Positions 9,502 through 12,834 of a DNA stretch of 35,856 nucleotides are shown here, in pieces; the stretch's first letter is position 1; every line of letters begins with the position of its first letter. The stretch lies in IMG/VR virus record IMGVR_UViG_3300044994_000146, positions 1 to 35,856 of that record; one strand, written 5' to 3'. The DNA comes from a virus. The translations under genes and the position numbers were made by a program. The notes under the pieces were generated by a model. It ran no database searches. It was given only the letters and a program-made list of their open reading frames with translations, and had not been told where the DNA came from.

Positions 9502-9689
9502 CGGTCGTGTTCCCGATAGGGGAACCGGTGTGCGCCGAGGGCGAGCCGGTCGTCGGGCTCGGGGGCGAAGCCGACCCGGGCGAGCTGCACCGCTGCGCAG
9601 ATGAGGGCGACGAAGGCGAGCAGGTGGCCGGTCGCGGCGTAGACCACGATGAGGGCCACGACGAGGACGAACGCGGTGACGACCTTCAC
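9498..9689 (-). CDS. Small membrane protein, two helices
   Basis: 63 residues from GTG 9689, which overlaps the upstream nuclease stop as GTGA. It starts VKVVTAFVLVVALIVVYAAT and continues GHLLAFVALICAAVQLARVG, two hydrophobic segments, then a polar tail ending PYREHDR. First of four nested membrane micro-genes. Possible roles include superinfection exclusion or membrane anchoring of early proteins; nothing in the sequence decides. Confidence 0.65.
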   Translation of the reverse strand: MKVVTAFVLVVALIVVYAATGHLLAFVALICAAVQLARVGFAPEPDDRLALGAHRFPYREHDR

Positions 9690-10105
9690 GACGCCGCCTC
9701 CGGTGCTGGGACTTCGATGATCTGCAGGTCGCCCGCCAGTTCGGCAGCGTCGAGGGCTTCGCGCTGCTCGGTTCCGACGGCTGGCATGTCGGAGGTGATG
9801 AGCAGGTAGCGGACGTTCTGGCCGGTGCGTTCCCGCCAGGCGTTGAGTCGGTAGAGGTAGCCGAACACCTTCCATCGGTTGTCGGATCGCACCATGCCGG
9901 GCTGGGTCGCTGTGCGGGGCGAGCCCTTGCACTCGACTCCGAACTCGTCGCCCTTCCACGACTTGACCAGCAGATCGAACTCGACGCCGGACTCGTGGCG
10001 GTTGCGTCGGGCGACCACCGTCATGCCGTGGCTCTCGAGCCAGTCGGCGACGTGGTCCTCGTAGACCCGGCCGAACTTGGAGGCGTCGGACTGGAAGTCG
10101 CTCAT
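9686..10105 (-). CDS. PD-(D/E)XK nuclease-like protein
   Basis: 139 residues from ATG 10105 (ATGA overlap with the methyltransferase). The N-terminal domain has the restriction-endonuclease-fold signature: Glu16 (VYEDHVADWLESHG), Asp44 (GVEFDLLVKSW), then Glu58-x-Lys60 (GVECKGSP). This is typical of Mrr, Holliday-resolvase-like and restriction-type nucleases that cleave DNA with Mg2+. The C-terminal half ends EAAS. Adjacency to a DNA methyltransferase suggests a modification-linked nuclease, or a host-DNA degradation enzyme the phage is protected against. Both are inferences. Confidence 0.7.
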   Translation of the reverse strand: MSDFQSDASKFGRVYEDHVADWLESHGMTVVARRNRHESGVEFDLLVKSWKGDEFGVECKGSPRTATQPGMVRSDNRWKVFGYLYRLNAWRERTGQNVRYLLITSDMPAVGTEQREALDAAELAGDLQIIEVPAPEAAS

Positions 10106-11253
10106 CGGTCGACCCCCCGGTCGAACACGAGCACCAGCTCGGGCCCGGCGCGTAGGGCACCGTTCGCCCCTTGGCGCAAGTGCCCGGTGAACAGACCCTT
10201 GGACGACTCGGGCTCGAACCTGAGCCCGAGTTCGACGAGGGTGGCGACGTGCCAGGCGGCCACAAGTTGCTGTTCACCGCCCCTGATGTGGTCCTTGATG
10301 TTGAGCACGAACCGGCCGCCGTGGCGCAGGACCCGCACGGCCTCGGACCACGCCCGCTTGTGGAACTTCCGGTACTCGTCGCCCCACTGCATGGCGCCGG
10401 AGTTGTCGGCGTCGAGGGGGCGTCCGAGGTCATGGGTGTAGCTGCGGCGACGCTCTGGGTCGCTGGCGTTGTGGGAATCGGCGAGCCGGTTGCCGTAGGT
10501 CGGGCTCGTGCAGATGGCGTCGAAGTGGCAGTCGTCGAACGGCAGGTCGAGCGCCGAGCCGAGCACGGTGTCGGGGTGCAATTCCGCCCACTCCGGTTCG
10601 ATCTCGATGCCGACCGTCGCGTTCGGCAGCTCGTGGATGCGGCCGGTGCCAGCGAACGGGTCGAGGACCAGGTCGTAGCCGTCGAGCAGCTCGGCGAAGA
10701 TCTGGAGGAGGGCGTCGCTGTAGCGGGCCGGGTGTGAGATGCCGCCGCCGAGATCGGGCTTCGTGATCGGCGCCTCGGGCTTCGGCGCGGCGATGGGCTG
10801 GCCGTCGTTCTCGCGCAGCTCCTGTCGGAACTCCTCGACCGCGGCGCGTGCTGCGGCGGGCCGGTCCTCGGGTGCGGTGTCGACCGTGGCCTCGGCGACC
10901 CGTTCCTTGACGACCTCGAGGTGCGGCTTGAGCTGGCGGGCAGTGTGTTCGTTCACGGTGACGGACTCACCAATTGGTGAGTCGAGCTGAGCGGCCTGGG
11001 TCAGCGCGCCGATCACGGTGGCTTGGTTGAGGAGGCGATAGGCGTGCTGCTCGGACATCTGGAACTCGGCGCCGACGTAGGCCTTGAACGAGTCGTAGCC
11101 CAGCGCCCGCCACGCGCCCCGGTCGTGCGCCTCGGCCAGCAACTGCCAGAGGGCATCCGCCGTCGACCGGATGCGCTCGGTCAGCTGGCGCGCTTCATCG
11201 GGCGTGCAGTCCGCCACCACCTCGCCGGTGGTCGAATCGACCAGCCCGGTCAC
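10102..11253 (-). CDS. DNA methyltransferase with N-terminal helical domain
   Basis: 383 residues from GTG 11253 (GTGA overlap with the excisionase-like gene). The N-terminal ~150 residues are helical and charged with a possible helix-turn-helix (GYDSFKAYVGAEFQMSEQHA). The C-terminal part is an SAM-dependent amino-methyltransferase: HPARYSDALL at 174-183, DPFAGTG at 198-204 for SAM binding, GIEIEPEWAE, and SPTYGNR at 250-256 in place of the DPPY catalytic motif, a variant seen in phage DNA methylases. It may protect phage DNA from host or phage nucleases, or tag newly replicated DNA. Sequence specificity cannot be predicted. Confidence 0.82.
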   Translation of the reverse strand: MTGLVDSTTGEVVADCTPDEARQLTERIRSTADALWQLLAEAHDRGAWRALGYDSFKAYVGAEFQMSEQHAYRLLNQATVIGALTQAAQLDSPIGESVTVNEHTARQLKPHLEVVKERVAEATVDTAPEDRPAAARAAVEEFRQELRENDGQPIAAPKPEAPITKPDLGGGISHPARYSDALLQIFAELLDGYDLVLDPFAGTGRIHELPNATVGIEIEPEWAELHPDTVLGSALDLPFDDCHFDAICTSPTYGNRLADSHNASDPERRRSYTHDLGRPLDADNSGAMQWGDEYRKFHKRAWSEAVRVLRHGGRFVLNIKDHIRGGEQQLVAAWHVATLVELGLRFEPESSKGLFTGHLRQGANGALRAGPELVLVFDRGVDR

Positions 11254-11438
11254 GACGCCGCCTCGGTGGAGCGGGCGGCAATGAAGGCGTCGATGTCGGC
11301 ACGGCGGAACAAGCGGATGCCACTGACGACCTGGACCGGAACGATCTTGCCGGTGCGTTCCCAGTAGTCGACCGTGGTGCGGTGGACTCCGTGTTCGTCG
11401 GCGATCTGCCCCGTGGTGATGAGGTCCGTATCCGTCAT
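11250..11438 (-). CDS. MerR/HTH_17-type excisionase or Cro-like regulator
   Basis: 62 residues, MTDTDLITTGQIADEHGVHR onward, with a winged-helix core: TTVDYWERTGKIVP, GIRLFRRADIDAFIAA. This is the excisionase/MerR-like DNA-binding fold used by recombination directionality factors. ATG 11438 is chosen because a -10/-35 pair places the transcript start at or next to this codon, giving a leaderless mRNA; upstream ATG 11456 and TTG 11474 lack ribosome sites. It is the first gene of the early operon and diverges from the repressor, the position of cro in comparable phages. It could act as Cro, Xis, or both. Confidence 0.75.
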   Translation of the reverse strand: MTDTDLITTGQIADEHGVHRTTVDYWERTGKIVPVQVVSGIRLFRRADIDAFIAARSTEAAS

Positions 11439-11445
11439 GGGTAGG

Positions 11446-11474
11446 ATTCTGCACATGACGAAGGGGTGCGTCAA
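11446..11474 (-). promoter_or_regulatory. Leftward early promoter
   Basis: Minus-strand TTGACG (11474-11469), a 17-base spacer, then CAGAAT (11451-11446). This is a good sigma-A-type match, and ATG 11438 falls about 7 bases past the -10, predicting leaderless initiation. An operator-like palindrome lies just upstream. Confidence 0.6.
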
Positions 11475-11482
11475 GGTTCAAT

Positions 11483-11525
11483 GTGGAGATTTCTCCACTT
11501 CACATGCGACCACTTGCATCATGTG
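11483..11525. promoter_or_regulatory. Candidate operators between divergent switch genes
   Basis: GTGGAG (11483-11488) and CTCCAC (11493-11498) form a perfect 6-bp inverted repeat spaced by 4. A second pair, CACATG at 11501-11506 and CATGTG at 11520-11525, lies beside it, and CACATG recurs at 11452-11457 inside the leftward promoter. These are plausible binding sites for the XRE repressor and the divergent regulator. Assignment to either protein is inference. Confidence 0.5.
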
Positions 11526-11542
11526 TAGGAAAGGCGCACCAT
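11514..11542 (+). promoter_or_regulatory. Possible rightward repressor promoter
   Basis: TTGCAT (11514-11519), a 17-base spacer, then CACCAT (11537-11542), placing the transcript start close to ATG 11550. The -10 match is weak, so this is tentative. It would mirror the leaderless layout of the leftward promoter. Confidence 0.3.
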
Positions 11543-11549
11543 CGGGGGC

Positions 11550-11912
11550 ATGAGCATCCAACTCGTACCTCCACTCATCGACGCCCCCAACGTCGGTGGC
11601 CGCATCAGGCAAGCGCGACGGCTGCGCGAGATGACCCAACAGCACCTTGCCGACGCCATCGGTTCCAGCCGCGAGTCAATCGGCGCCTGGGAGCGAGGCA
11701 AGACCTCGGTCCCGTTCGATGACCTGGTCGACATCGCCCGAGCCGTCCGCCTGCCGATCGGGCTCCTCGTCGACGGACTCGACGGTCAGCCACCGATCGG
11801 CCCCGGCGGCGGTGGTCCTCGGTGGGCCCCGTGGGACTCGAACCCACAACCAGCGGAAACACGGTCCGAACGCCACCTCACCGTGGTCGCCGAACTCGCC
11901 GACGCAGCCTGA
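11550..11912 (+). CDS. XRE-family immunity repressor, phage form with attP inside
   Basis: 120 residues. Residues about 15-75 are a helix-turn-helix of the XRE/HTH_3 type: GGRIRQARRLREMTQQHLAD, IGSSRESIGAWERGK, DDLVDIARAV. From residue 91 the coding DNA is the antisense of a tRNA 3' half (RWAPWDSNPQPAE), and the protein ends VVAELADAA. Site-specific integration at this tRNA core would replace everything after about residue 90 with host-encoded residues. The phage-form tail ends in an ssrA-like hydrophobic Ala-Ala, so the unintegrated form is probably unstable and the prophage form stable. This arrangement is known for integration-dependent immunity in some mycobacteriophages; function here is inferred from architecture. 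Confidence 0.85.
   Translation: MSIQLVPPLIDAPNVGGRIRQARRLREMTQQHLADAIGSSRESIGAWERGKTSVPFDDLVDIARAVRLPIGLLVDGLDGQPPIGPGGGGPRWAPWDSNPQPAETRSERHLTVVAELADAA
11823..11866 (-). other. attP: attP core: tRNA 3'-half remnant
   Basis: Read on the minus strand, this is the end of a tRNA. A TCCGC anticodon-stem strand (11859-11855) is followed by the variable loop, a perfect T-arm (GTGGG-TTCGAGT-CCCAC, 11847-11831), the acceptor strand GGGGCCC (11830-11824) and discriminator A (11823). The 5' half is absent, so it is not a functional tRNA gene. The anticodon-loop region looks degenerate, so amino-acid identity is uncertain (Lys- or Thr-like arms). Tyrosine-recombinase phages commonly use tRNA 3' ends as attachment cores, and the integrase starts about 110 bases downstream. 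Confidence 0.85.
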
Positions 11913-11979
11913 GCAGATCACCCCAGTGGGAACCCTCCACCAGCTCCGTACCCTCGACCGTTCGGGAGAGGAAGATCAC

Positions 11980-12834
11980 ATGGTCGAGGACTACATCGCG
12001 CACCGGGTCGAACGATGCGAGCTCGCACCGTCGAGCGTCGTCAACATCCGCGCCACGCTGCTGCAATGGCATCGCCACGCCGGACCGGTCGACCACTGGA
12101 CGCCGCCGGTCGCGACGAGCTGGTGCCACGACCAGATGATCCGACCGGGCACCCGCAAGATGCGCCGGGCCCGTCTGCGGCCCTACACCGCATGGCTGTG
12201 CCGCACCGGCCTGCTCGAGACCGACATCGCCGCGGACGTGCCACGGGTGAAAGTCCCGGCCCGTCCACCACGGAACCTCGACCGGGCAGCGGTCGCGCGT
12301 CTGCTCGCCGCCTGCCCCGACGACCGGGCCACACTCATCGTCACACTCATGGTGCAGTGCGGGCTCCGCTGCATCGACCTGTCACGGGTGCTCATCGAGG
12401 ACATCGACACCGCCCGACACCGCCTCGACGTACGAGCCAAAGGCGGTAGCGGCGACGTGACCCACTCGGTGCACATCCCCGGCGAAGCATGGGAGCTGCT
12501 TGTGCCCTACGTGCGCAACCTCGGCCGCTCATCCGGCCCGCTCATCACCAACAACCGGCGACTGCAACCACACCCAATCTCCGCCGGCCATCTGTCGGTG
12601 CTGGTCCGCCGGTGGATCACCGACGCCGGCCTGAAAGCATTCCCCTACGACGGCGTCTCACCGCACGCGCTGCGCCACACCTGCGCCCAGGACATGCTCG
12701 ACTCGGGCGCCCGAATCGACCACGTCCGCGCCGCGCTCGGGCATCGCACCGCAACCACGACCGAGGAGTACTACCTGCGACGCGAACCCCGTGGACTGGC
12801 CGAGTCGATGGAAGGACGCCGCTACGCCGCCTGA
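11980..12834 (+). CDS. int: Tyrosine-family integrase
   Basis: 284 residues from ATG 11980 with GGGAGAGGAAG upstream; an in-frame GTG at 11926, 14 bases after the repressor stop, is the alternative. An N-terminal core-binding domain (about 1-75) is followed by the catalytic domain with all key residues: Arg130 (CGLRCIDLSRV), Lys154 (VRAKGG), His229 and Arg232 (HALRH), His255 (LGHRT) and Tyr264 (TEEYY). It would recombine attP inside the upstream repressor gene with a host tRNA. At under 300 residues it is compact and lacks an evident arm-binding domain. The C-terminus, EGRRYAA, resembles an ssrA-type degradation tag. Co-transcription with the repressor is likely. Confidence 0.93.
   Translation: MVEDYIAHRVERCELAPSSVVNIRATLLQWHRHAGPVDHWTPPVATSWCHDQMIRPGTRKMRRARLRPYTAWLCRTGLLETDIAADVPRVKVPARPPRNLDRAAVARLLAACPDDRATLIVTLMVQCGLRCIDLSRVLIEDIDTARHRLDVRAKGGSGDVTHSVHIPGEAWELLVPYVRNLGRSSGPLITNNRRLQPHPISAGHLSVLVRRWITDAGLKAFPYDGVSPHALRHTCAQDMLDSGARIDHVRAALGHRTATTTEEYYLRREPRGLAESMEGRRYAA

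Follow-up and report, generated by a model that had tools for sequence, protein, structure and literature searches.

A tRNA-Lys attachment core inside the repressor gene of an uncultured phage points to an integration-dependent immunity switch

The virus DNA analysed here, referred to below as the window, is a record of 35,856 bp with a GC content of 67.4%. It contains a lysogeny cassette at positions 11250-12834, consisting of a leftward Xis-like gene, a rightward repressor gene and a tyrosine integrase gene, and it also encodes terminase, portal, tape-measure and primase/polymerase proteins. The features of the cassette are presented in Table 1. The integrase, which the preliminary description of this DNA had correctly placed directly 3' of the repressor, matches PF00589 (E 1.8e-19) and phrog_1 (E 1.4e-30), and its catalytic residues R148, K172, H247-R250, H273 and Y282 are invariant in the alignment. 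Its likely start is the ATG preceded by GGAGAGGAAG. The leftward gene had been called a MerR-like regulator; the direction and the HTH_17 (MerR-type) assignment hold, but the name Xis-like fits better in view of the match to phrog_66 (E 6e-12). The gene order tested for, with a tyrosine integrase directly 3' of the repressor and an early gene diverging, is found here. The xis gene is followed by a methyltransferase-like gene (N6_N4_Mtase, 10102-11250, minus strand), the end of which is overlapped by a gene for a 139-residue protein of unknown function (window 9686-11250).

Table 1. Genes and predicted elements of the lysogeny cassette (window coordinates)
Feature	Position	Strand	Remarks
Divergent Xis/Cro-like HTH_17 (MerR-type) gene	11250..11438	-	62 aa; phrog_66 (excisionase and transcriptional regulator)
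Candidate OR, imperfect palindrome CGTCATGGGTAG-N4-CTGCACATGACG	11433..11460		28 bp; covers the -10 of candidate PR and the xis start
Candidate PR, sigma-70-like TTGACG-17-CAGAAT	11446..11474	-	1 found against 0.0 expected in shuffles
Candidate ORep, third half-site copy TCATGTGTAGGA	11519..11530	+	about 20 bp 5' of the repressor ATG
Repressor gene, phage form	11550..11912	+	120 aa, XRE/HTH_3
attP common core, tRNA-Lys(UUU) 3' half, position 39 to encoded ACC	11821..11857	-	antisense in the repressor frame
Tail predicted to be lost on integration, TRSERHLTVVAELADAA	11859..11909	+	codons 104-120; in-silico junction
ADAA, last four repressor codons	within 11859..11909	+	putative ssrA-like degron; Purky and Guacamole repressors end likewise
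Tyrosine integrase gene	11980..12834	+	probable start ATG 11980, alternative GTG 11926; C-terminus RRYAA

The candidate promoter PR faces the xis gene. Its predicted transcript start lies about 7 bases further on, at the xis ATG, so the xis message is probably leaderless. The half-site TCATGTGTAGGA, allowing up to two mismatches, has four matches in the whole window, and three of these fall within the 96 bp between positions 11435 and 11530. The mycobacteriophage BPs has its OR at PR and its ORep close to gene 33 (PMC4557955). The repeats found between xis and the repressor gene may act as operators.

The repressor frame contains an HTH_3 domain (E 2.2e-11), in agreement with the earlier assignment to the XRE type, and its best PHROG is phrog_2328 (E 4.2e-16, residues 11-108). 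The protein ends in ELADAA, as had been read before, and the phage frame is ...WAPWDSNPQPA-ETRSERHLTVVAELADAA-stop. The 37-bp core is located in frame (WDSNPQPA) at codons 91-103, and its reverse complement is TCCGCTGGTTGTGGGTTCGAGTCCCACGGGGCCCACC; it occurs only once in the window. The presence of an antisense tRNA segment inside the repressor, beginning within the last 30 codons and with the T-arm at 11831-11847 and the acceptor strand at 11824-11830, is therefore confirmed. The length of 44 bp originally given for this segment does not stand, and real tRNA-Lys(TTT) genes match 37 bp.

When 84,980 species genomes were scanned for exact copies of the core, matches at 37 of 37 positions were found in only five, all of Actinomycetospora. 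There are six exact loci in these genomes, five of which are identified by ARAGORN as tRNA-Lys(TTT), matching from position 39 to the 3' end, while the sixth is a second core copy that A. soli carries at a distance of 13.8 kb from the tRNA. Since an exact match of 37 bases is found in so few genomes, all members of a single genus, and always at tRNA-Lys, a chance origin is excluded. Among 396 sampled genomes of the phylum, the only exact match is in A. chiangmaiensis, and three other genomes match with two mismatches, all of them at tRNA-Lys(TTT). Rfam gave no significant tRNA call on the core, as expected for half of a tRNA. The attB is likely to be a tRNA-Lys(UUU) gene as in Actinomycetospora, and the identity of the core suggests that this genus is probably the host of the phage. 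The GC content around the host tRNA-Lys loci, 71-73%, is compatible with such a host.

The tRNA-Lys gene of A. soli is itself occupied, with two copies of the core, 13.8 kb apart, enclosing an element that carries tra, xis and int genes. Because the second core copy flanks this element, the tRNA-Lys gene acts as an attB in nature, with this same core. The element (NZ_JAJNDA010000002.1, about 151.9-165.8 kb) is a pSAM2-like integrative element, and according to our reading of its translations it encodes an FtsK-like transfer protein, a small helix-turn-helix (Xis-like) protein and an integrase. In strain TBRC 11914, a related integrase gene, possibly interrupted, is located 3' of the tRNA.

Searching genomes with the tRNA segment, as the preliminary description had proposed, thus provided a candidate attB but no sequenced lysogen. 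The 390 genomes examined from the Actinomycetospora family contained neither a lysogen nor a close prophage, and a search for portal relatives in the 396 genomes of the phylum gave no close prophage either; this counts against the switch considered below. Phage records gave no match to the cassette DNA, tblastn with the repressor and integrase gave distant matches only, and scans of viral contigs with the integrase and with the core gave no match. The record has a full-length repressor and a single core copy and hence represents the unintegrated phage form.

Joining the core in silico to the attB of the five Actinomycetospora genomes gives the same product each time, ...WAPWDSNPQPA-D-stop (GAT TAA), with a length of 103 residues. 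The predicted junction of repressor, core and tRNA 5' half is ...AACCAGCGGATTAAAAGTCCGATG. The predicted prophage form consists of 102 unchanged residues and one host-coded Asp, with 17 residues lost; the earlier expectation of about 90 residues plus a host-encoded tail is not borne out. The predicted stop comes from the anticodon loop, where tRNA positions 35-37 (UUA) read TAA in antisense. Any tRNA-Lys with a standard loop would therefore supply it, and this loop is shared by the three actinobacterial tRNA-Lys genes in which two core bases differ. In either of the other frames, translation would run on for about 8-10 codons before reaching a stop within the tRNA. Since the host provides a stop in all three frames, truncation alone is weak evidence of design or selection. 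The host-coded tail is shortest in the frame used here.

Three features define integration-dependent immunity (PMC9934374), and all three are seen or predicted in this cassette: a core inside the repressor frame, a stop codon contributed by bacterial DNA where phage and host sequence join, and an -AA terminus confined to the long form (...ELADAA against ...QPAD, as judged from the sequences). The gene order, the -AA terminus of the integrase, the divergent Xis-like gene and the operator-like repeats are also consistent with immunity of this kind. We consider it highly probable that the cassette is an integration-dependent immunity switch of the BPs, Charlie and Brujita type, and the binary switch proposed in the preliminary description is supported in kind. 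On infection, the 120-residue repressor would be made with ...ELADAA as a degradation signal, so that the repressor would be scarce and the lytic genes would run. The integrase, which also ends in -AA and is therefore probably itself unstable, would recombine the core with the host tRNA-Lys gene. Integration would fuse the repressor gene to the tRNA 5' half in antisense, and the frame would end as ...DSNPQPAD followed by TAA. The host tRNA would be rebuilt intact, and the integrase would be separated from the repressor promoter. The 103-residue repressor, now without the tag, would accumulate, repress PR and maintain lysogeny. A further proposal is that the output of the switch is hard-wired to the tRNA, the antisense of UUA giving a stop to one repressor frame in any host with that tRNA-Lys, and that no earlier example comes from a phage of Pseudonocardiales, the repressor-integrase pair being likewise undescribed until now; for this proposal we find the balance even.

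The ELADAA ending resembles an ssrA-like tag. Instability of the long form is proven in the BPs, Charlie and Brujita systems, where altering residue 135 of the 136 in BPs stabilises it (PMC4557955), and the long form would be degraded here as well. The tags encoded by host tmRNAs end in QLAA, so -AA degrons fit the host. The final three residues of the repressor are DAA rather than the canonical LAA, and this counts against the switch. In an AlphaFold model of the single repressor sequence the tail has pLDDT below 50 and is uninformative. Of the 13 known or predicted repressors that make up a panel for comparison, most have a terminal AA (Purky DADAA, Guacamole SADAA, Brujita NEHAA, Charlie DSAA, McGonagall LVAA, GRU3 VTAA), while Avrafan ends in KAS. 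Several panel integrases also end in AA, as does the integrase here with YAA.

The repressor family can be compared in the same panel. The top PHROG is phrog_2328 in nine of the nine known repressors scanned (Brujita, Charlie, Avrafan for the BPs group, McGonagall, GRU3, SallySpecial, Wizard, Purky and Coeur), with E from 2e-26 to 8e-45. Residues 92-103 of the match in our repressor are tRNA-coded, and part of the similarity thus reflects a shared tRNA and not ancestry. The helix-turn-helix part of the match, seen as HTH_3, stands independently of this segment. Eleven known repressors of the panel contain antisense T-loop sequence, seven in the frame used here ([D/E]SNP) and four in a second frame, which agrees with the two frames reported for tandem M. 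abscessus prophages (PMC9934374).

A 37-bp tRNA-Lys attP inside the repressor has already been described for the Gordonia cluster CW phages (PMC5559632). McGonagall, Jeanie and GRU3, and also SallySpecial with the same core and frame, have this arrangement with the integrase downstream, as found here; their frame RDSNPEPAD is the same as our WDSNPQPA-D, and their repressors likewise end in AA and belong to phrog_2328. However, the repressor and integrase of McGonagall are only about 26% and 25% identical to those of our phage, the CW genomes are about 16-18 kb against 36 kb, and the host genus is different. BPs (represented by Avrafan), Charlie and Brujita share the architecture, the phrog_2328 repressor and the -AA or -AS tails, but differ in core and repressor sequences. 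The BPs prophage repressor has 103 residues, from 136 (PMC4557955), which is the length predicted here, although 33 residues are lost in BPs and 17 in our phage. In mycobacteriophage Purky and Gordonia phage Guacamole the repressor also ends in ...ADAA and an Xis-like gene diverges, but the cores differ from the tRNA-Lys core.

The overlap of attP with the repressor might simply reflect tight packing of the repressor and integrase genes, with the tail trimmed and both forms equally stable and active, so that there is no switch. The core does lie outside the helix-turn-helix domain, host stops exist in every frame, and the function of the tail is a prediction. However, -AA endings on both repressor and integrase are uncommon among the other large open reading frames of the window and match those of known members, and the repressor belongs to the family of the proven integration-dependent repressors; we regard packing as unlikely. 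Another reading, in which the tRNA piece would have no part in integration and would be either the remnant of a phage-borne tRNA gene or host DNA acquired by transduction, is scarcely credible. Phages do carry tRNA genes, but here the identity breaks off abruptly both at the anticodon stem and at the 3' end, a 5' half is absent, and the integrase adjoins the piece, as in the 11 panel phages with antisense T-loop sequence in the repressor.

The switch could also be real and use an attB in another host or another tRNA, with a junction and product different from those predicted. The close relatives of the window are metagenomic, without a named host, and other actinobacteria contain sequences that nearly match the core. 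Confinement of the exact 37-mer to Actinomycetospora argues against this possibility, which we judge improbable, and the same stop would come from any tRNA-Lys whose anticodon loop is standard.

The integration-dependent switch favoured here would carry a simple binary choice between lysis and lysogeny, made when integration alters the repressor, into an uncultured phage lineage whose probable host is Actinomycetospora. For this lineage the analysis supplies an integrase as well as a likely host and attB. Mycobacteriophages already provide the principle; new here are the divergent repressor-integrase pair, the probable Actinomycetospora host and the defined attB and junction. The design appears to recur with very divergent repressors and integrases, the features in common being mainly the -AA tail and the segment encoded by the tRNA.

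A sister phage (L054/L074) has a portal 78% identical to ours and the same order of xis, repressor and integrase. No recognisable tRNA core was found in its repressor (L074), which counts against the switch, though the protein ends in RPAAA. The stop of this repressor overlaps an integrase start codon (L074:622-2187). In a more distant relative (L092:737-2300), a repressor ending in LIAA overlaps an integrase ending in GDAA, and a tRNA-like antisense segment (GAATCGAACACC) is located about 250 bp 3' of the integrase, where it may represent an attP outside the repressor.
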